A stretch of DNA of 64,000 nucleotides, taken from positions 3,658,001 to 3,722,000 of the forward strand of contig NZ_VFNC01000002.1 in NCBI RefSeq assembly GCF_006715395.1. Direction: 5' to 3'. Under the pieces are notes generated by a model. It ran no database searches. It worked only from the letters and a program-made list of their open reading frames with translations, and was not told where the DNA came from. A program made the position numbers and the translations under genes. Source of the DNA: Streptomyces sp. SLBN-31. GTDB lineage: Bacteria; Actinomycetota; Actinomycetes; Streptomycetales; Streptomycetaceae. Positions 640 to 42,802 of this stretch are shown piece after piece (position 1 is the stretch's first letter; each line of letters starts with the position of its first letter).

Positions 640-1962
<1,323 letters not shown>

Positions 1963-1985
1963 TCACGGCCGTACGGCGGCAGGGG

Positions 1986-2087
1986 TCAGCTCGGACAGAG
2001 GGCGCTGTTCAGCCTGCACAGGTCGACGTGCAGCCGCGCCACGAGCAGGGTGCCCGGCGTCTTTTCGCTCACGTCGTTGGAAACCAT
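1986..2087 (-). CDS. Cysteine-rich leader peptide upstream of cysO
   Basis: A 33-codon ORF reading ATG at 2087 to TGA at 1986, too short for usual gene callers. Its C-terminal half contains RLHVDLCRLNSALC. The LHVDLCR core is the signature I know from actinobacterial leader peptides placed before sulfur-metabolism operons. Two Cys codons near the end suit ribosome-mediated sensing of charged tRNA-Cys. It ends 111 bp before cysO on the same strand. TACGAT at 2094-2099 is a good -10 box whose predicted transcription start falls on or next to the ATG, so the transcript is probably leaderless. Confidence 0.7.
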   Translation of the reverse strand: MVSNDVSEKTPGTLLVARLHVDLCRLNSALCPS

Positions 2088-2093
2088 GCGGTC

Positions 2094-2138
2094 ATCGTAT
2101 CGATTCCCGGTCCCCGACCCGGAGTGTGATCTCACACT
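2094..2138 (-). promoter_or_regulatory. Promoter and palindromic site for the leader peptide-cysO-cysM unit
   Basis: On the minus strand a -10 box TACGAT (2099-2094) has no recognisable -35. Instead a perfect inverted repeat AGTGTGA-N2-TCACACT lies at 2123-2138, centred about 43 bp before the predicted start at 2087. This position suits an activator replacing the -35 element. The half-sites TGTGA/TCACA resemble CRP or GntR-type sites, but the 2-bp spacer is not the CRP spacing; the regulator is unknown. Confidence 0.5.
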
Positions 2139-2229
2139 ACGGACGCATTCCGACCGGCTGCTGAGACCGCACAGCTCAGGCGGACGCCCGGGTCACCGGC
2201 CGGGCCGGGCGCAGGGGCTCGGTACGGGC

Positions 2230-2652
2230 TCAGTATGCCTCGACGACGGCGACCTCCTCCTCGGTCACCTCGCCGTCCACGATCCGGAACGAGCGGAACT
2301 GGAACTCGCCGAGGCCGTCGGTGTCGGCGGTGGAGACCAGGACGTAGTGGGCGCCGGGCTCGTTCGCGTAGGAGATGTCGGTGCGGGAGGGGCGGGCCTC
2401 GGTGGCCGTGTGGGAGTGGTAGATGACCACCGGCTCCTCGTCGCGGTCGTCCATCTCGCGGTAGAGCTTGAGCAGGTCGCCGGAGTCGAACTCGTAGAAG
2501 GTCGGCGACATGGCCGCGTTGAGCATGGGGATGAAGCGCTCGGGGCGGTCCGAACCGGCCGGCCCGGCGATGACGCCGCACGCCTCGTCGGGGTGGTCCT
2601 TGCGCGCGTGGGCGACGATCTGGTCGACGAGGGCCTGGGTGATGGTCAGCAT
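2230..2652 (-). CDS. mec: Mec, JAMM-family CysO-cysteine peptidase
   Basis: 140 residues. The JAMM metalloprotease signature is complete: E23, then H79-S-H81 followed by ten residues and D92, the Zn ligands and catalytic glutamate of Mpr1p/Pad1p N-terminal peptidases. The mycobacterial homologue Mec+ cleaves cysteine from the CysO-cysteine adduct made by CysM. Because CysO here has a Met-Ala tail beyond Gly-Gly, the same peptidase could also mature the carrier; this is inference by analogy with JAMM proteins that trim other sulfur carriers. ATG start at 2652. It is separated from cysO by the 355-bp leader region, so it may be transcribed independently. Confidence 0.92.
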   Translation of the reverse strand: MLTITQALVDQIVAHARKDHPDEACGVIAGPAGSDRPERFIPMLNAAMSPTFYEFDSGDLLKLYREMDDRDEEPVVIYHSHTATEARPSRTDISYANEPGAHYVLVSTADTDGLGEFQFRSFRIVDGEVTEEEVAVVEAY

Positions 2653-28097: not shown

Positions 28098-28218
28098 CTG
28101 ATGCGTTCGTCTCTTCCGCAACAGCGGCACAACCCCGGGTGCCCCTCGGGTGTCCATCACATGACCGGGGGTCGAACCGCCGGTCGTCGTGCTGTCTGTT
28201 TTCGACGAGGAGATCCAC

Positions 28219-29430
28219 GTGCGCCAGCACCTGCGCTCGTACATCCGGTCCTCGGCCGCCTTCGTGGCCGCCTTCGCGATCGCCGGGGGCGTCGCGCCCG
28301 CGGCGCACGCCGAGGACGCGGGGGCCGATCTGGTGGTCTCGGCGCTGCCGAAGGCTTCGCCCAAGCCCGGTGAGGTGTACGACCAGGACGTCGTCATCAC
28401 CAACAAGGGCACCGCCGCCGTGGACGGCGTCAGCTTCCGGGTGCGGCTGACCCGCGGGCTGGACTTCCCGGAGCCGGTCGCGGGCTGCAGCTATTCGACC
28501 GTCGAGGACCAGGTCCGGCAGGCCGTGTGCGAGATCGACGAGGTCGTGCAGCCCGGCGCCTCCATCAAGACCGCCGTACGGTTCAAGGCGCTGCCCAAGG
28601 CCCTGATGGAGGCCGTCGAGTACGGCACCGGCACGACAGGTGAGACGCCGGGCGAGGGCTTCACCGACAGCTACCGGCGGCTGGCCCTCACCGCCGACAG
28701 CACCGCCGACCTCGTCGCCGTCGGCGACGACACCGAGGCCCTCGCGGGGGACGCGCAGTCGGTCACGGCGACGCTGCGCAACGACGGCCCCGGCTGGATA
28801 CGCAACCAGGAGAGCGACGACCAGCCCGCGCTCATGGTGCACATCCCGGCGGGCACCACCGCCACCGAAGTACCCAAGGACTGTTCGCCGTTCGGGATCG
28901 ACGGCCCGTCCGCTCCGGGCGGGACGCCGGGCGCGGACGTGTACGTCTGCACGCCCGCCGACCACACCATCGAGGTCGGTCAGTCGCTGCTCTACACCTT
29001 CATGCTGAAGATCGACGCCGATGCGAAGACCACCACCAGCGAGGTGAAGGCGACCTCGGTCTACGACATCCACCCGGCCTTCGACAAGAACCCGGCCAAC
29101 GACAAGGCCCAGATCCACATCGCCATCCCCACCGACAACGAGGAGGACCCCACCACCTCGGGCGGCTCCACCGGCGGTTCCACGGACGGCGGTTCCACGA
29201 CCGGCGGTGCGGCGGACGGCGGTTCCGGCAGCGGTGGCCACGGCAACGACCCGCAGGGCCAGGCGGCCGGCGGTACCGGGTCCGGTGGCGGCTCGGTGAC
29301 CGGCTCTCTGGCGAGCACCGGCTCCGACGGCGTCCCGGCGGTCGCCGGTGTCGCGGGCGCCGCGGCCGGACTGGGTGGCCTCCTCGTCCTCGCCGCACGC
29401 CGGCGCCGCGCGGGCACCGGGGCCTCCTGA
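28219..29430 (+). CDS. Secreted LAxTG-anchored surface protein
   Basis: 403 residues from GTG 28219 with GAGGAG 7 bases upstream. A signal peptide (about 1-33, ending PAAHA) is followed by two DUF11/CARDB-like beta-sandwich regions (GADLVVSALPKASPKPGEVY and a second near residue 165), a Gly/Ser/Thr-rich wall-spanning segment and the C-terminal sorting signal: LASTG, a hydrophobic helix and RRRR. LAxTG is the motif used by class E sortases of high-G+C Gram-positives, so the protein should be linked to peptidoglycan. No sortase gene is in the window. Convergent with the SUKH-like gene. Confidence 0.87.
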   Translation: MRQHLRSYIRSSAAFVAAFAIAGGVAPAAHAEDAGADLVVSALPKASPKPGEVYDQDVVITNKGTAAVDGVSFRVRLTRGLDFPEPVAGCSYSTVEDQVRQAVCEIDEVVQPGASIKTAVRFKALPKALMEAVEYGTGTTGETPGEGFTDSYRRLALTADSTADLVAVGDDTEALAGDAQSVTATLRNDGPGWIRNQESDDQPALMVHIPAGTTATEVPKDCSPFGIDGPSAPGGTPGADVYVCTPADHTIEVGQSLLYTFMLKIDADAKTTTSEVKATSVYDIHPAFDKNPANDKAQIHIAIPTDNEEDPTTSGGSTGGSTDGGSTTGGAADGGSGSGGHGNDPQGQAAGGTGSGGGSVTGSLASTGSDGVPAVAGVAGAAAGLGGLLVLAARRRRAGTGAS

Positions 29431-30916: not shown

Positions 30917-33226
30917 CTACTGCGAGGTGACGACCGCGGCCTGCGGGCGGATCGGCAGCCGGTTCACCGGGCGGCCCGTCGCGGCCCGGACGGCGGAGGC
31001 GATCGCGGCGGGGGACGTGACCACCGGGACCGCGCTCACCGCCTTCGCGCCGAACGGCGCCACCACGTCCCGCTCCTCCACGAGCTTGACGATGCGGATG
31101 TCCGGGGCGTCCAGGGCCGTCGGCAGCGCGTAGCCGGTGAGGTCGGGGTGGCGGATCAGCCCGCGCGCGGTGCGCAGGTTCTCCGTCAGCGCGATGCCCA
31201 CGCCCTGGATGACGCCCGCCTCGATCCGGGCGGCCAGCTGGGCCGGGTTCAGGACGCGGCCGACGTCCTGGGCGAGCGCCAGCTCCACGACCCGTACCGA
31301 ACCGAGCTCGATGTCGACGTCGACCACCGCGCGGATCGCGCAGAAGGCCATCCCGACGAACGCGTCGCCCTGGCCGGCGCCGTCGAGGGGCTCCGTGGGG
31401 TGCGGCCGGCACTGGGCCGTCGCCCACAGCTCCTTGCCGTCCATCGCCTCGGTGACGGTGGTCGACAGGACCCCGTCGTACGAGGTGATCTTGCCGTCGG
31501 TGATCTGGAGCAGTTCGGTGGACATGCCGAACTTGTGGGCCAGCGGCTGCAGGAGCTGGGTGCGGACCATCTTGGCCGCGCGTTCCACCGCGCCGCCGGA
31601 GACCCAGGTGTGGCGGCCGCGGCAGCCCGCGCCGGCCGGGGGCTGGTCGGTGTCGACGGGGGCCACGTGGACCTCGTCGATGCCGAGGGTCTCCTGGACG
31701 ATCTGGCGGGCCAGCGTGGTGAAGCCCTGGCCGGTCTCGACGGCCGCGCACAGCACGGTCGCGACGCCGTCCTGGACCTTCACGGTCGCCGTGGAGACCT
31801 CGTCGGCGCCCTCCGCGCCGAGCATGTGGACCATGCCGAGGCCGTAGCCCACGCCCCGGCGCACCGCGCCCGGTTCGCCCGCGCCCTCGGGGCCGCCGGG
31901 CAGCAGCCACTCGTCCTCGGGGGTGTCCTTGGGCAGCGCGGGCAGCGGGAAGTCCCGTACGGCCTGCAGCAGTTCCGCGACCGGCGCCGGGCAGGTCACC
32001 GTCTGCCCGGTGGGCAGGACGTCACCGGTGGCCAGGACGTTGCGCAGGCGCAGCTCCGCCGGGTCGACGCCGAGCTTCTTGGCCAGCTTGTCCATCTGCG
32101 CCTCGTAGGCGGCGCACACCTGCATGGCGCCCTCGCCGCGGACGTGGCCGGAGGGCGGGTTGTTGGTGCGTACGGCCCAGCCCTCGATGAAGGCGTTGGG
32201 CACGACGTAGGGGCCGCAGGCGAAGCCCACGGCGGCGGCCAGGGCCTCGGAGGAGGTGTCGGCGTAGGCGCCCGCGTCGAGCAGGATCTGCGCCTCGACC
32301 TTGACGAGCCTGCCCTCGGCGTCGGCGTGGTGGCGGTATCTGAGGAGCGTGGGGTGGCGGTGGACGTGGCCGAGGAAGGACTCCTCGCGCGTGGCGGTGA
32401 GTTTGACCGGGCAGCCGGTGCGCAGGGCCAGCAGGCCGAGGGGGAGCTGGAAGCCCTGGTCCTCGCGGTCGGCGGTGGCGCCGGGGACACCGGTGACGAC
32501 GATCTTGACGCGCTCGGGTTCCAGGCCGTAGCAGGCGGCGGCCGTGTCGCGGTCGGCGTGCGGGTCGGTGGAGGCCAGGTAGAGCTCGACGCCGCCGTCC
32601 GGGCGCGGGACGGCGAGGCCGGCCTCGGCGCCGATGGGGGCCGGGTCCTGGCGGCCGATGCGGTACAGGCCCTCGACGACGATCTCGCCGGCCGCGTCCG
32701 GGTCGCCGTGGCGCAGCGGGATGTGCCGGATCAGGTTGCCGTCGGGGTGCAGCGGCTCGGCCTCGAAGGCCTGCTCGGGGTCGGTGACGGGGTCGAGGAC
32801 CTCGTACTCGACCATGATGGCCGCGGCGGCCATGCGGGCGGTGTCGGGGTGGTCGGCGGCGACGGCGGCGATGGGTTCGCCGTGGTGGCGTACGACCTCC
32901 GAGGCGAAGACCGGGCGGTCGGCCTTCCCGCGTCCGTGCACCGGGGTGCCGGGGACGTCCTCGTGCGTGACGACGGCCCGGACGCCGGGCATCTCGCGCG
33001 CGTGGGAGGTGTCGATCGACAGGATGCGCGCGTGCGGGTGCGGGGAGCGCAGTACGGCCGCCCACAGCAGGCCCTCGGCCCACAGGTCGGCCGCGTACGG
33101 GAACGTGCCCTCGGTCTTGGCCCGGGCGTCGGCGGCCGGCAGGGAGGCGCCGAGGCCGTGCGGGATCGGCTCGGGAGCGGGTGCTGCCTCCGCGGTGGTG
33201 GTCGCGGTGGCGGCTTCGTTGCTCAC
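30917..33226 (-). CDS. Xanthine dehydrogenase-family large (molybdopterin) subunit with altered active site
   Basis: 769 residues from GTG 33226, overlapping the Fe-S gene stop as GTGA. The fold is clear: an N-terminal a/b-hammerhead domain (GTFPYAADLWAEGLLWAAVLRSPHPHARI, shown in part), then the molybdopterin domains with ETGQGFTTLARQI and GRHTWVSGG. Key motifs deviate: the terminal GVGEPP that carries the catalytic Glu in xanthine dehydrogenase, CO dehydrogenase and relatives reads AVSAVP (A732 in place of Glu, codon at 31031-31033); the cofactor loop GGGFGGK is GVPGATADRED (246-256); the second loop reads HVRGEGAMQ with R363 kept. The reaction is therefore unknown. Confidence 0.88.
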   Translation of the reverse strand: MSNEAATATTTAEAAPAPEPIPHGLGASLPAADARAKTEGTFPYAADLWAEGLLWAAVLRSPHPHARILSIDTSHAREMPGVRAVVTHEDVPGTPVHGRGKADRPVFASEVVRHHGEPIAAVAADHPDTARMAAAAIMVEYEVLDPVTDPEQAFEAEPLHPDGNLIRHIPLRHGDPDAAGEIVVEGLYRIGRQDPAPIGAEAGLAVPRPDGGVELYLASTDPHADRDTAAACYGLEPERVKIVVTGVPGATADREDQGFQLPLGLLALRTGCPVKLTATREESFLGHVHRHPTLLRYRHHADAEGRLVKVEAQILLDAGAYADTSSEALAAAVGFACGPYVVPNAFIEGWAVRTNNPPSGHVRGEGAMQVCAAYEAQMDKLAKKLGVDPAELRLRNVLATGDVLPTGQTVTCPAPVAELLQAVRDFPLPALPKDTPEDEWLLPGGPEGAGEPGAVRRGVGYGLGMVHMLGAEGADEVSTATVKVQDGVATVLCAAVETGQGFTTLARQIVQETLGIDEVHVAPVDTDQPPAGAGCRGRHTWVSGGAVERAAKMVRTQLLQPLAHKFGMSTELLQITDGKITSYDGVLSTTVTEAMDGKELWATAQCRPHPTEPLDGAGQGDAFVGMAFCAIRAVVDVDIELGSVRVVELALAQDVGRVLNPAQLAARIEAGVIQGVGIALTENLRTARGLIRHPDLTGYALPTALDAPDIRIVKLVEERDVVAPFGAKAVSAVPVVTSPAAIASAVRAATGRPVNRLPIRPQAAVVTSQ

Positions 33227-35100
33227 GCCTGGCCTCCGTCCTGTCCGTACGCCTGGTCGTGCGGGGCGGGGTCGAACGCCGACGGGTTGACACCGCCGGC
33301 CCCCGGACCCGCCTGGTGGGGAATACGTGCCTCGTCGCCGTCGTGTTCGGCGTCCGCGGCGTTGTGCGCCTGTCGTTCGGCGACAACCTCCTGGACGGCG
33401 TCGACGACGCCCCGGTAGCCGGAGCAGCGGCAGAGGTTGCCGCACAGGGCCTGGCGGGTCTCCAGCTCGGTCGGCGCCGGGTTGCCCTCCAGCAGGTCGT
33501 GCACGGTCATCGCCATGCCGGGCACGCAGAAGCCGCACTGGACGGCGCCGCAGCGGGCGAGCGCGCGCTGCACGTCCGACGGCTGCCCGTCCTCCGCGAG
33601 GCCCTCGACGGTACGGACCTCGCTGCCGGCGGCGGTCACGGCGGGCACCAGGCAGGAGGCGACCAGGCGCCCGTCGACCTGGACGTTGCACGCGCCGCAC
33701 TCGCCCTGGGAGCAGCCGTCCTTGGCGCCGGCGAGCCCGAGGCGCTCGCGCAGCACGTAGAGCAGTGACTCGCCGATCCAGGCGTCGGAGACGGGGCGTT
33801 CCACGCCGTTGACGCGCAGGACGTAGGAGGCGAGGGGGTGTTCCTCACCGGGAAGCGAGGGCGCGGGTTCCTCGGAGGCGTCGGTGGTGCCGGCGGCTCC
33901 GGTGGGGTCCGGGGCGTCGGAGACCGGTGCGGCGTCGTCGGTGTCCGGAGCGTCCGCCGGGGCGGTGGCGGCCCCGGCCGCCGTCGGCTCGGCCGCCTCC
34001 GCCCGGTCGTGCGTCTGCGAGCCGTCACCGGGCCCTGTGAACGCCTCTGCGGGCCTCTCGGGGCCCTCAGTGGGCTCCTGGGCCTCCTCGGCCACCCCGG
34101 CGGCCTCACGGGCCCCTTGGACGGCCTGTGAGGCGGCCGCTGCGGCGTCGGACGCGGAGGCGTAGCCCTCGGCGGCCCCGGCCGCGTAGTCACCGGCCCG
34201 GGCCGGGGCCGCGCCCGCGGCCTCGTGGCCGGCGGGCTCGCTCTCCGGCGGCCGGAGGTCCCGCGGATGTTCGCCGGTGTGCGGGGCCGCGTAGCCGGTG
34301 CCGTCGGCGGGCCCGTGGCCGGTGGGCTCCGGGCGTCCCGGCGTCGGCGGTGCGCCGGGGTGCCCGTGGGCCGGGCCGGCGTCCGTGGGCCGGCCGGGCG
34401 CCTGCCCGATGGCGTGGTGGCCGGTGTCGTGGTGGCCGGTGTCGGTCCGTCCGTCGTCCGTCCGTCCCGGGGCGGTGTCCGTGCCCGCCGCCGACGCGAG
34501 GGGCCGTCCGGCGCCGTCGGTTCCCGTCGGTTCCGCGGTCTCCTGCCCCCACGGCCGGCCCGCGCCCTCCGTCGCCCAGGGGGCGGCCGCGCCGCCGGGG
34601 AGGGTCGCCGGGGGTGTTCCGCCCCACTGCTGGACCAGGGACGACGTAGTGAACTCGCCCGATTCGTCCGGAAGATCGCCGTTGGCGACGGGGATCGACC
34701 ACTGGCCGGTGACGTCCTGGCCGGCCCCGGGGCCGCCCTCGGTGCGCGCCGGATCCTCGTAGGCCCACTGCTGCGTGGTGGCGGGGTTGTACGTGAACTG
34801 GTCGTTCCCGGCGCCGTGCGGCACGGCGTTGGGGTCGGGCCACTGGGCGCCGTCGGCCGGTGCGGCCCAGCCGCCCGGGGCCTCCGGGTCGCCGCCCGGC
34901 GTGGTCTGTATCTGCGGCGGCACATAGCCGTGGCCGCGCGCGGCGAGCGGGCTGTCCGCGGCGGCGAGGAGCGCGTCGATGCCGCCCTCGGGAAGTTTCA
35001 CGAAGGCGGTAGCGCCGTCGTCGTAGTCGCCCTGGGGCAGCGGGTCCCAGCGGCCGCCACTCTGGGGCGGGGTGCCCTCTCCGTGCTGGTCGTCGGTCAC
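33223..35100 (-). CDS. [2Fe-2S] subunit of molybdenum hydroxylase with long N-terminal extension
   Basis: 625 residues from GTG 35100, which overlaps the previous stop as GTGA. Only residues about 426-580 form the usual two-domain ferredoxin subunit: GCSQGECGAC and a fourth Cys (C463, C468, C471, C483), then CGFCVPGM and CRCSGY (C522, C525, C557, C559). The preceding 425 residues are low in hydrophobics and rich in Gly, Pro, Ala, Thr, Asp and His, with tracts such as DTGHHDTGHHAIG; about 45 similar residues follow the domain. Normal subunits are 150-180 residues. It relays electrons between the Mo site and FAD. Confidence 0.88.
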   Translation of the reverse strand: MTDDQHGEGTPPQSGGRWDPLPQGDYDDGATAFVKLPEGGIDALLAAADSPLAARGHGYVPPQIQTTPGGDPEAPGGWAAPADGAQWPDPNAVPHGAGNDQFTYNPATTQQWAYEDPARTEGGPGAGQDVTGQWSIPVANGDLPDESGEFTTSSLVQQWGGTPPATLPGGAAAPWATEGAGRPWGQETAEPTGTDGAGRPLASAAGTDTAPGRTDDGRTDTGHHDTGHHAIGQAPGRPTDAGPAHGHPGAPPTPGRPEPTGHGPADGTGYAAPHTGEHPRDLRPPESEPAGHEAAGAAPARAGDYAAGAAEGYASASDAAAAASQAVQGAREAAGVAEEAQEPTEGPERPAEAFTGPGDGSQTHDRAEAAEPTAAGAATAPADAPDTDDAAPVSDAPDPTGAAGTTDASEEPAPSLPGEEHPLASYVLRVNGVERPVSDAWIGESLLYVLRERLGLAGAKDGCSQGECGACNVQVDGRLVASCLVPAVTAAGSEVRTVEGLAEDGQPSDVQRALARCGAVQCGFCVPGMAMTVHDLLEGNPAPTELETRQALCGNLCRCSGYRGVVDAVQEVVAERQAHNAADAEHDGDEARIPHQAGPGAGGVNPSAFDPAPHDQAYGQDGGQA

Positions 35101-35990
35101 GACAGCGCCCTCCCCAGTGCTCGTCGGGCCAGCGCGGCGACGGTGCGCCGCAGGTGCAGAACGGCGGGCGGAAGCTGCGGTACGGATCCGTCGGCCTCGG
35201 GGGCCGGGTCGGGGATGCAGGCCGCGGCGACGTACTCCCCGAAGGCCTGCAGTGCCTCGGGGACGATCGCGCGGCCGTTGTCCCAGTCGATCAGCCGGGC
35301 AACCCACTGCTCGGCGTCCAGCGGACGCAGCGGCATCGGCGCTATGGCGCCGACGGCGCACCGCACTCCGCGCCGCGCGGGGTCGAGGACCAGTGCGACG
35401 GAGGCCATCGCGCGGCCCGGTCCGGTCCGGCCGGTCGCCTTCAGGAAGACCTGCGGCGCGTGCAGCAGGGGCACGCGCACGTAGCCGATGAGTTCGCCGC
35501 CGCGCAGCATGTCGACGCCGGCCAGGAGGTGCGACACCGGGATCTCCCGGCGGGCTCCGCCCGGGCCCGCGATGATCAGTGTGGCCTCCAGGGCGGCCAG
35601 GACGGGCAGCGCGTCCCCGGTGGGCGCGGCCGTGGCGATGTTGCCGCCCAGGGTGCCCGCGTTTCGGATCTGCGGTGGGCCCGCGGCGCGGGCGGCGGCG
35701 GCGAGCGCCGGGATCAGGGCGGCGAAGTCGGGGCGGCCCATACGCGCGTGCGTGAGGCCGGCGCCGAGGAGCGCGTGACCGTCCTGGTACTGCCAGCCGC
35801 GGATCTCGCTGATCCGGCCGAGGCCGACCAGCGCGGCGGGCCTGAGCTGCCCGGAGTTGACGGCGGCCATGAGGTCCGTGCCGCCCGCCACGGGCACGGC
35901 GGCGGGCATGGCGACGAGGGCCGCCACGGCCTCGTCCAGTGTCGTGGGCAGCGTGACGGACTGCGCCGCCTGCGGTGCGTGCGTGGTCAA
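35097..35990 (-). CDS. FAD-binding subunit of molybdenum hydroxylase (CoxM/XdhB type)
   Basis: 297 residues taking TTG 35990 as start because GGAAGGGG lies about 9 bases before it; GTG at 36017 is an in-frame alternative. FAD-binding motifs VPVAGGTDLMAAV and QIRNAGTLGGNIATAAPTGD are conserved, as is the C-terminal CO-dehydrogenase flavoprotein domain (FLKATGRTGPGRAMASVAL). First gene of the operon FAD-FeS-Mo, with both downstream junctions overlapping by 4 bp. It would pass electrons from the Fe-S clusters to NAD or another acceptor. Confidence 0.88.
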   Translation of the reverse strand: MTTHAPQAAQSVTLPTTLDEAVAALVAMPAAVPVAGGTDLMAAVNSGQLRPAALVGLGRISEIRGWQYQDGHALLGAGLTHARMGRPDFAALIPALAAAARAAGPPQIRNAGTLGGNIATAAPTGDALPVLAALEATLIIAGPGGARREIPVSHLLAGVDMLRGGELIGYVRVPLLHAPQVFLKATGRTGPGRAMASVALVLDPARRGVRCAVGAIAPMPLRPLDAEQWVARLIDWDNGRAIVPEALQAFGEYVAAACIPDPAPEADGSVPQLPPAVLHLRRTVAALARRALGRALS

Positions 35991-41386: not shown

Positions 41387-42802
41387 CTACGGTGCGACGC
41401 CCGCCGCCTTGGCCGCCTCGCGCACCGCTCCGGCCACCGCGCCCGCGACCTTGTCGTTGAAGACGCTCGGGACGATGTAGTTCGGGTTGAGCTCGTCCTC
41501 GGTCACGACGTCCGCGAGGGCGGTCGCCGCGGCCAGCATCATCTCGGTGTTGACGGTGCGGGACTGGGCGTCCAGCAGGCCGCGGAAGACACCCGGGAAG
41601 ACCAGCACGTTGTTGATCTGGTTCGGGAAGTCGGAGCGGCCGGTGGCCACGACGGCCGCCGTCTGACGGGCGATCGCCGGGTCCACCTCGGGGTCGGGGT
41701 TCGCGAGCGCGAACACGATCGCGCCCTCGGCCATGGCGGCCACGTCGTCGCCGTCGAGGACGTTCGGGGCGGAGACGCCGATGAAGACGTCCGCTCCGCG
41801 AACGGCCTCCTTCAGCGTGCCGGTCAGGCCCTCGGGGTTGGTGTTGTCGGCGATCCAGCGCAGCGGCGAGTCGGCGGCGGCCTCGCGCAGATCGTCGCGG
41901 CCGGCGTGCACGACGCCGCGGATGTCGGCGACGACGGCGTTCTTCACGCCGGCGGCGAGCAGCAGCTTGAGAATGGCCGTACCGGCCGCGCCGGCGCCGG
42001 ACATCACGACCCGGATGTTCTCGATCGGCTTTCCGGTGCAGCGCAGCGCGTTCTTCAGGGCGGCCAGGACGACGATCGCGGTGCCGTGCTGGTCGTCGTG
42101 GAAGACGGGGATGTCCAGGGCCTCGCGCAGCCGCGCCTCGATCTCGAAGCAGCGGGGGGCGGAGATGTCCTCGAGGTTGATGCCGGCGAACCCGGGGGCG
42201 ATGGCCTTGACGATCTCGACGATCGCGTCGGTGTCCTGGGTGTCGAGGCAGATCGGCCAGGCGTCGATGCCGGCGAACCGCTTGAACAGCGCCGCCTTGC
42301 CCTCCATGACCGGCAGGGCGGCCTTGGGGCCGATGTTGCCCAGGCCCAGCACGGCCGAACCGTCCGTCACGACCGCAACGGAGTTGCGCTTGATGGTCAG
42401 GCGGCGGGCGTCCTCGGGGTTCTCGGCGATCGCCATGCACACGCGGGCCACGCCCGGCGTGTAGACCATGGACAGGTCGTCACGGTTGCGAATGGGGTGC
42501 TTCGACGCCATCTCGATCTTGCCGCCGAGGTGCATCAGGAACGTACGGTCGGAGACCTTGCCGAGGGTGACGCCCTCGATGTGGCGCAGCTGCTCGACGA
42601 TCTCCTCGGCGTGCGCGGTGGAGGTGGCCGCGATGGTGACGTCGATGCGGAGCTTCTCGTGCCCGGAGGCGGTGACGTCGAGGCCGGTCACCGAGCCTCC
42701 GTGGGACTCGACGGCCGTGGTGAGCTGGGAGACCGCGGTTCCGCTCGCGGGCACCTCCAGCCGGACCGTCATCGAGTAGGAGACGCTGGGCGCCGTTGCC
42801 AT
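41387..42802 (-). CDS. NAD(P)-dependent malic enzyme with N-terminal ACT-like domain
   Basis: 471 residues from ATG/GTG 42802. Residues about 8-85 resemble an ACT regulatory domain (SMTVRLEVPASGTAVSQLTTAVE, IDVTIAATSTAHAEEIVEQL). The malic enzyme core follows: SMVYTPGVARVC, KRNSVAVVTDGSAVLGLGNIGPKAALPVMEGKAALF (in parts), FHDDQHGTAIV with metal-binding Asp residues, and the Rossmann GAGAAGTAI. The enzyme oxidatively decarboxylates malate to pyruvate. In S. coelicolor the homologue at this position is, to my memory, NAD-dependent. The ACT domain suggests amino-acid or other small-molecule control. Confidence 0.92.
   Translation of the reverse strand: MATAPSVSYSMTVRLEVPASGTAVSQLTTAVESHGGSVTGLDVTASGHEKLRIDVTIAATSTAHAEEIVEQLRHIEGVTLGKVSDRTFLMHLGGKIEMASKHPIRNRDDLSMVYTPGVARVCMAIAENPEDARRLTIKRNSVAVVTDGSAVLGLGNIGPKAALPVMEGKAALFKRFAGIDAWPICLDTQDTDAIVEIVKAIAPGFAGINLEDISAPRCFEIEARLREALDIPVFHDDQHGTAIVVLAALKNALRCTGKPIENIRVVMSGAGAAGTAILKLLLAAGVKNAVVADIRGVVHAGRDDLREAAADSPLRWIADNTNPEGLTGTLKEAVRGADVFIGVSAPNVLDGDDVAAMAEGAIVFALANPDPEVDPAIARQTAAVVATGRSDFPNQINNVLVFPGVFRGLLDAQSRTVNTEMMLAAATALADVVTEDELNPNYIVPSVFNDKVAGAVAGAVREAAKAAGVAP

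Follow-up and report, generated by a model that had tools for sequence, protein, structure and literature searches.

The closest described systems to the locus analyzed here are molybdenum enzymes of the xanthine oxidase family. 4-Hydroxybenzoyl-CoA reductase is the best PDB match to the large subunit of the locus, P0001, both by sequence and by Foldseek. This characterized molybdenum enzyme (1rm6), however, has Glu, GGGFG, and Gln at three columns that are altered in P0001. R. capsulatus xanthine dehydrogenase (1jro) and bovine xanthine oxidase (1fiq) are also characterized molybdenum enzymes with a catalytic Glu. The PucD-type molybdenum subunit of xanthine dehydrogenase, represented in the same genome by a paralogue (G000:C1:1750125-1752446), shares with P0001 the domain order, the three-subunit gene set, and 44% identity, whereas P0001 lacks its Glu, the Phe of its pterin loop, its Gln (Arg instead), and its ASRQT loop. 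The model for this type, TIGR03196, is the best NCBIfam match to P0001 with 657.1 bits, under the curated cut-off of 783.65. Enzymes of the xanthine oxidase family are matured by XdhC. For PaoD, the counterpart for PaoABC, a role in Moco modification and insertion is expected (PMC3958847).

Many orthologues of P0001 are named "xanthine dehydrogenase family protein molybdopterin-binding subunit" by their sources. The S. coelicolor orthologue is presumably SCO2940, judging by its gene number near SCO2951 (malate oxidoreductase); a gene at 41387-42802 in the window (the whole 64,000-nucleotide stretch of Streptomyces sp. SLBN-31 DNA that was analyzed) is apparently malic-enzyme-like. In one study, SCO2940 is listed in Table 5 as a putative oxidoreductase/putative xanthine dehydrogenase, among nine genes chosen from combined S. 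coelicolor transcript and protein data (PMC3770449). Streptomyces xanthine dehydrogenase annotations are mentioned, not tied to this gene, in two others (PMC13118837, PMC11767837), and a limited literature search found no paper on this complex. Replaced residues at its metal and catalytic sites, together with its persistence in two genomes that have no XdhC over the cut-off, suggest that the complex is probably no longer a molybdenum enzyme.

Organization of the operon

The three genes lie on the minus strand. The FAD-binding subunit (PF00941, 1.4e-40) is encoded at 35097..35990, with a probable TTG start at 35990. It is followed by the 2x[2Fe-2S] subunit (625 aa; PF01799 and PF00111) at 33223..35100 and by the large subunit, the former molybdopterin subunit, at 30917..33226, which has a GTG start and a translation of 769 aa. 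The original prediction described tightly overlapping frames, and each junction indeed overlaps by 4 bases: the FAD gene ends at 35097 and the Fe-S gene starts at 35100, and the Fe-S gene ends at 33223 and the large-subunit gene starts at 33226. P0001 combines the alpha/beta hammerhead, MoCoBD_1, and MoCoBD_2 in one chain, as in the xanthine oxidase family, and this fold is retained in its predicted structure. The 2x[2Fe-2S] ligands and FAD loops of the partner subunits likewise match the subunit plan of this family. The claim that these ligands and loops are intact extends to the orthologues: all eight ligand Cys are present in 127/128 loci (L066 is gapped at four), and the FAD subunit has GGTDL in 86/89 rows, the rest being two gaps and one GATDL, and retains its TLGGN..PTGD-type loop. 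In-frame TGA, a hint of recoding, was flagged in several genomes, G034, G046, and G031 among them; in the four that were read (L133, L134, L139, and L140), the genes are full-length, and the stop ends the gene.

The Fe-S subunit carries a low-complexity N-terminal extension of ~420 aa (33843-35100, minus strand) that is rich in P, A, G, and D and holds short conserved pieces, e.g., GHGYVPP and TGQWSIP. Its length is ~190-710 aa in most orthologue loci and 12-82 aa in L133, L137, L138, L141, L146, and L148. The extension measures 0-29 aa in three canonical loci, and the related-family genome G374 apparently has one. Used as a query against its own genome, it found no match besides itself.

Downstream of the operon is a SUKH-4 immunity-type gene (PF14435; 29487-30707, minus strand). 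SUKH-4-like genes are present at the Streptomyces loci L011, L021, and L085 and absent at L084 and at the listed loci of other genera. Convergent with this gene, a DUF11-like protein that by eye looks secreted is encoded at 28189-29430 (plus strand); its C-terminus, LASTGSDG...RRRR, resembles a sorting signal. Farther away, at 640-2652 (minus strand), are three small genes of apparent CysM-CysO-Mec type; they resemble a cysteine synthase, a carrier of the ThiS/MoaD kind, and a protease with a JAB domain.

The cofactor pocket of the large subunit

A key residue of molybdenum hydroxylases is the catalytic Glu in GxGE, which is absent from P0001. As the original prediction stated, the GVGEPP signature reads AVSAVP. 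Ala732, within AKAVSAVP, is encoded by GCG at 31031..31033 (minus strand) and occupies the column that we equate with bovine Glu1261. Glu stands opposite Ala732 in all four alignments to solved enzymes that reach the column (1rm6, 1sij, 1t3q, and 7dqx; 3hrd_A stops short), and the own-genome paralogue likewise has Glu there. Across the 479 rows of the alignment, which include many near-copies and are not independent, the column is Ala in 324, Glu in 138, Asp in 14, and Ser in 3. The alignment omits L001 and L006-L008 (duplicates or second matches on the same genes), and L009 and L010 have no match. The Glu rows are the canonical relatives, and the Asp rows are a Yinghuangia/Streptodolium-type sister clade. 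In a midpoint-rooted tree of 44 rows, the Ala rows (23) form one group and the Asp rows (7), whose named members are Yinghuangia and Streptodolium, form another; both lie together behind a branch with support of 100/99. The Carbonactinospora protein P0300, which has Glu, adjoins this joint group with support of 100/97. Orthologues with Glu would have pointed to a local change, yet none was seen inside the clade, the Glu rows falling outside it in the tree and 327/479 rows having Ala or Ser. The occurrence of Ala, Ser, or Asp across the rows and loci of the clade rules out a local mutation or sequencing error. Asp-clade loci L146-L148 read GLGDAA and the like at this column, apparently a half-way or separate state.

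The replacements extend to the remainder of the pocket, in which the Phe of GGxFG, the Gln of GQIxG, and the ASR loop of molybdenum hydroxylases are all changed. We assume here that the residues contacting the cofactor are those of bovine xanthine oxidase. Counts of Ala-clade, Asp-clade, and canonical rows refer to thinned sets of sequences with at least 700 filled columns, minus L003-L005, at 85% identity for Ala and Glu rows and 90% for Asp rows. At column 667 (R667 in P0001; codon 31226..31228, minus strand), presumably equivalent to Gln1194 of the bovine pterin site, every row of both clades has Arg (23/23 Ala, 7/7 Asp), and Gln is found in 14/14 canonical rows. The pterin loop reads GVPGATADRED (246-256; 32459..32491, minus strand), as originally reported, and canonical relatives have mostly GVGGAFGxRED. 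Within it, Phe251 is retained in only 1/23 Ala-clade and 0/7 Asp-clade rows, Pro248 is fixed in the Ala clade, and Glu255 is unchanged in 22/23 Ala-clade rows, with one Asp. RGRHT (536-540; 31607..31621, minus strand) stands where canonical relatives have mostly ASRQT, Ser537 having become Gly in 21/23 Ala-clade and 7/7 Asp-clade rows.

The substrate loop, HVRGEGAMQ (361-369; 32120..32146, minus strand), was also read correctly in the original prediction, which left out the replacement of its Phe by Glu (E365), R667, and the Fe-S extension. We take column 365 to correspond to bovine Phe914 in the cavity and substrate loop. Ala-clade rows have Glu here without exception (23/23), and 13/14 canonical rows have Phe; in the Asp clade the residue is Pro in 7/7 thinned rows, yet Ser in L148. 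R363 is unchanged in 22/23 Ala-clade and 7/7 Asp-clade rows. The GQG motif (499-501) is intact, as claimed, with Q500 in 18/23 Ala-clade rows. The Gln193 column, presumably that of the bovine Mo ligand Gln767, is Ala or His in 15/80 loci. The Gln adjoining an Fe-S Cys, which we equate with the bovine pterin contact Gln112, is retained in 128/128.

Nine signature columns, picked from bovine ligands, summarize these differences. They read QFRFQASQE in 62/64 canonical loci (29/31 and 33/33) versus 0/132 orthologue loci (80 and 52, the 52 from whole genomes comprising 49 Ala/Ser and 3 Asp), indicating that the replaced pocket is not a product of chance. Phe251, Gln667, and Glu732 are retained even in the two canonical loci that deviate, L161 and L198. 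QTREQRGRA is the most frequent reading among orthologues (59/80 and 17/52 loci). The 14 canonical rows share 183 invariant columns, of which the clade keeps 136 and has lost 19; the losses comprise 5/11 first-shell columns versus 14/172 others (Fisher p 0.0022). In canonical rows, the pocket loops are far more conserved than the remainder (0.53 versus 1.03 bits, p 1.7e-9), and in the Ala clade they are little more conserved (0.48 versus 0.63 bits, p 0.055). The low confidence of the pocket loops in the predicted model was discarded as a signal, the canonical model dipping similarly.

Retention and history of the locus

Matches at E 1e-150 are found in all 150 family genomes. By identity (65-100%), the match is of the Ala type in 141/150, three of them partial (G034, G074, and G136), and of the Asp type in 7/150. 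Neither type is found in the remaining two, G015 (98% complete, with a weaker match) and G138 (71% complete). Large-subunit sequences were read for 50/141 Ala-type genomes, including the window's own, and 3/7 Asp-type genomes. Purifying selection acts on the large subunit no less strongly than on its canonical paralogue: the median Nei-Gojobori omega is 0.125 versus 0.176 for the paralogue (136 pairs, 17 genomes), the latter value probably being raised by a G086 copy that may not be orthologous. New residues are re-fixed at P195, P248, W601, R667, and E365.

The order murA-YqgE-DUF3039-(hexosaminidase)-FAD-FeS-large-MFS-helicase is wholly or mostly kept at the family loci with enough flank, including those of the Asp clade. 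The Carbonactinospora-type genome G374, from a related family, has the order malic enzyme, YqgE, DUF3039, FAD, Fe-S, large subunit, MFS, helicase, with Glu in the large subunit. This protein, 100% identical to P0300, resembles the clade in locus and gene order and has 54-58% identity to Ala-type proteins among the matches listed. Unlike the clade, it (L198) retains Phe251, Gln667, and Glu732. Because gene order is kept and a Glu enzyme occupies the corresponding locus in G374, loss of the site probably occurred at this very locus. The simplest history would be that the enzyme was converted where it stood, not that a spare copy decayed. Synteny, purifying selection, and the intact Fe-S and FAD parts bear out the original view that the complex is maintained.

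Molybdenum dependence and function of the complex

The dependence of the complex on a matured molybdenum cofactor was examined through XdhC. In the window's genome, three XdhC sites over the cut-off are near other family members, and none is near the operon. XdhC beside the operon was set aside as a marker: it is found at 0/99 orthologue loci but at just 2/13 canonical loci, and the G374 locus is without it. Genome-wide, XdhC is detected at E 1e-8 in 147/150 family genomes. A loose search found no XdhC over the cut-off in G113 (best 17.8 bits) or G043 (13.4 bits), genomes that are 100% (3 contigs) and 99% complete. In each of the two, the degenerate gene is the sole MoCoBD_2 match in the genome, and all three operon genes are present and unbroken. 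XdhC is present in 49/49 comparison genomes, which comprise 40/41 outside-family matches (G163, 72% complete, was omitted), 7/10 matched genomes of family f46, G374, and G015; reading the sequences confirmed a Glu enzyme in 48 of the 49 (all but G015). G131 was dropped as an XdhC-free case, having a weak XdhC match and other family members. The MocA model TIGR03310 reaches its cut-off in 0/6 genomes (G113 best 42.8 bits, five others 55-115), which makes the low score of G113 a weak hint. moaA is present in 150/150 family genomes, G113 included, so molybdopterin can be made, and this gene is uninformative as a marker. Since XdhC and moaA are so generally kept, the XdhC test opposes an XdhC-matured cofactor more than it opposes any pterin. 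The argument that the complex may be independent of molybdenum rests on two genomes, G113 and G043.

The main rival explanation, which we regard as unlikely, is that the complex is still a molybdenum enzyme whose catalytic acid has moved to E365 in an unusual cofactor environment. Each lineage has one acid at one or the other of two cavity columns, Glu being invariant at column 365 of the Ala clade (23/23) and Asp being found at 732 in the Asp clade, a pattern that a relocated base would also produce. Consistent with this explanation, R363 (22/23), E255 (22/23), and the Gln that adjoins an Fe-S Cys are retained. However, the changes exceed what a base swap would entail (Arg for Gln667 in 30/30 rows, Gly for Ser537 in 28/30, no Phe251 in 29/30, drift at Gln193 in 15/80 loci), and the complex persists in the two genomes without XdhC over the cut-off. 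The original prediction offered an activity other than classical hydroxylation or the use of another base. Classical hydroxylation does appear unlikely, the Glu and several cofactor-pocket residues being replaced clade-wide. Between the two options, the former is favored by the two genomes that have neither XdhC over the cut-off nor another family member, with E365 still a candidate base.

It is more doubtful still that a Mo/W cofactor is bound in an altered geometry for reduction or transfer, or for cofactor storage or hand-over. The best PDB match is a reductase of the same family, and moaA is universal in the family genomes, as this explanation would have it; yet 4-hydroxybenzoyl-CoA reductase itself keeps the Glu, GGGFG, and Gln, and the XdhC-less genomes speak against a matured cofactor. 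A relic drifting toward decay once the use of the enzyme was gone is very improbable. Although neither type has a match in G015 or G138, the complex is matched in 148/150 family genomes, its omega is below that of the paralogue, and new residues have been re-fixed. An omega near 1 or frequent disruption was looked for, and neither was seen.

With the electron carriers and fold kept and the parts that hold or use molybdenum lost, a molybdenum-independent complex is the simplest account. We predict, with a probability of about two in three, a flavin/iron-sulfur complex that functions without molybdenum and in which the former Mo subunit has become a scaffold or binds a ligand. It is also reasonably probable that this complex is family-wide and vertically inherited, without Mo cofactor, and that its pocket has been rebuilt for another ligand or partner. 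The rebuilt pocket would, with comparable plausibility, comprise R192, R536, R538, H539, R667, E365, and the re-fixed GRQDPAPIG loop. Loop 189-209 shows greater conservation among Ala-clade rows than among canonical ones, so something may still be bound in the pocket. Conservation of loop GRQDPAPIGAEAGLAVPRP exceeds that in canonical rows, which makes a new ligand plausible.

These considerations allow a mechanism to be proposed. In the ancestor of the Streptomycetaceae, the Mo-cofactor pocket of a chromosomal molybdenum hydroxylase with FAD, Fe-S, and Mo subunits would have been lost at its original locus, and the three-subunit complex would then have been kept as a molybdenum-independent one. 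The former Mo subunit, presumably no longer binding molybdopterin, would act either as a scaffold or as a site for docking or ligand binding next to the first [2Fe-2S] cluster. Electrons could reach or leave a partner over a short route formed by FAD and the two clusters; the neighboring MFS and helicase genes give no clear hint as to that partner. NuoG of complex I, a molybdopterin-enzyme fold within an Fe-S electron path from which the cofactor is absent, is a precedent for such a complex, but it belongs to another molybdoenzyme fold family and has other partners. If our reading is correct, the current xanthine dehydrogenase names would mislead for a gene matched in 148/150 family genomes, and Glu, Asp, and Ala at the catalytic column would form a natural series from a molybdenum enzyme to a metal-free redox complex that keeps its electron-transfer parts.
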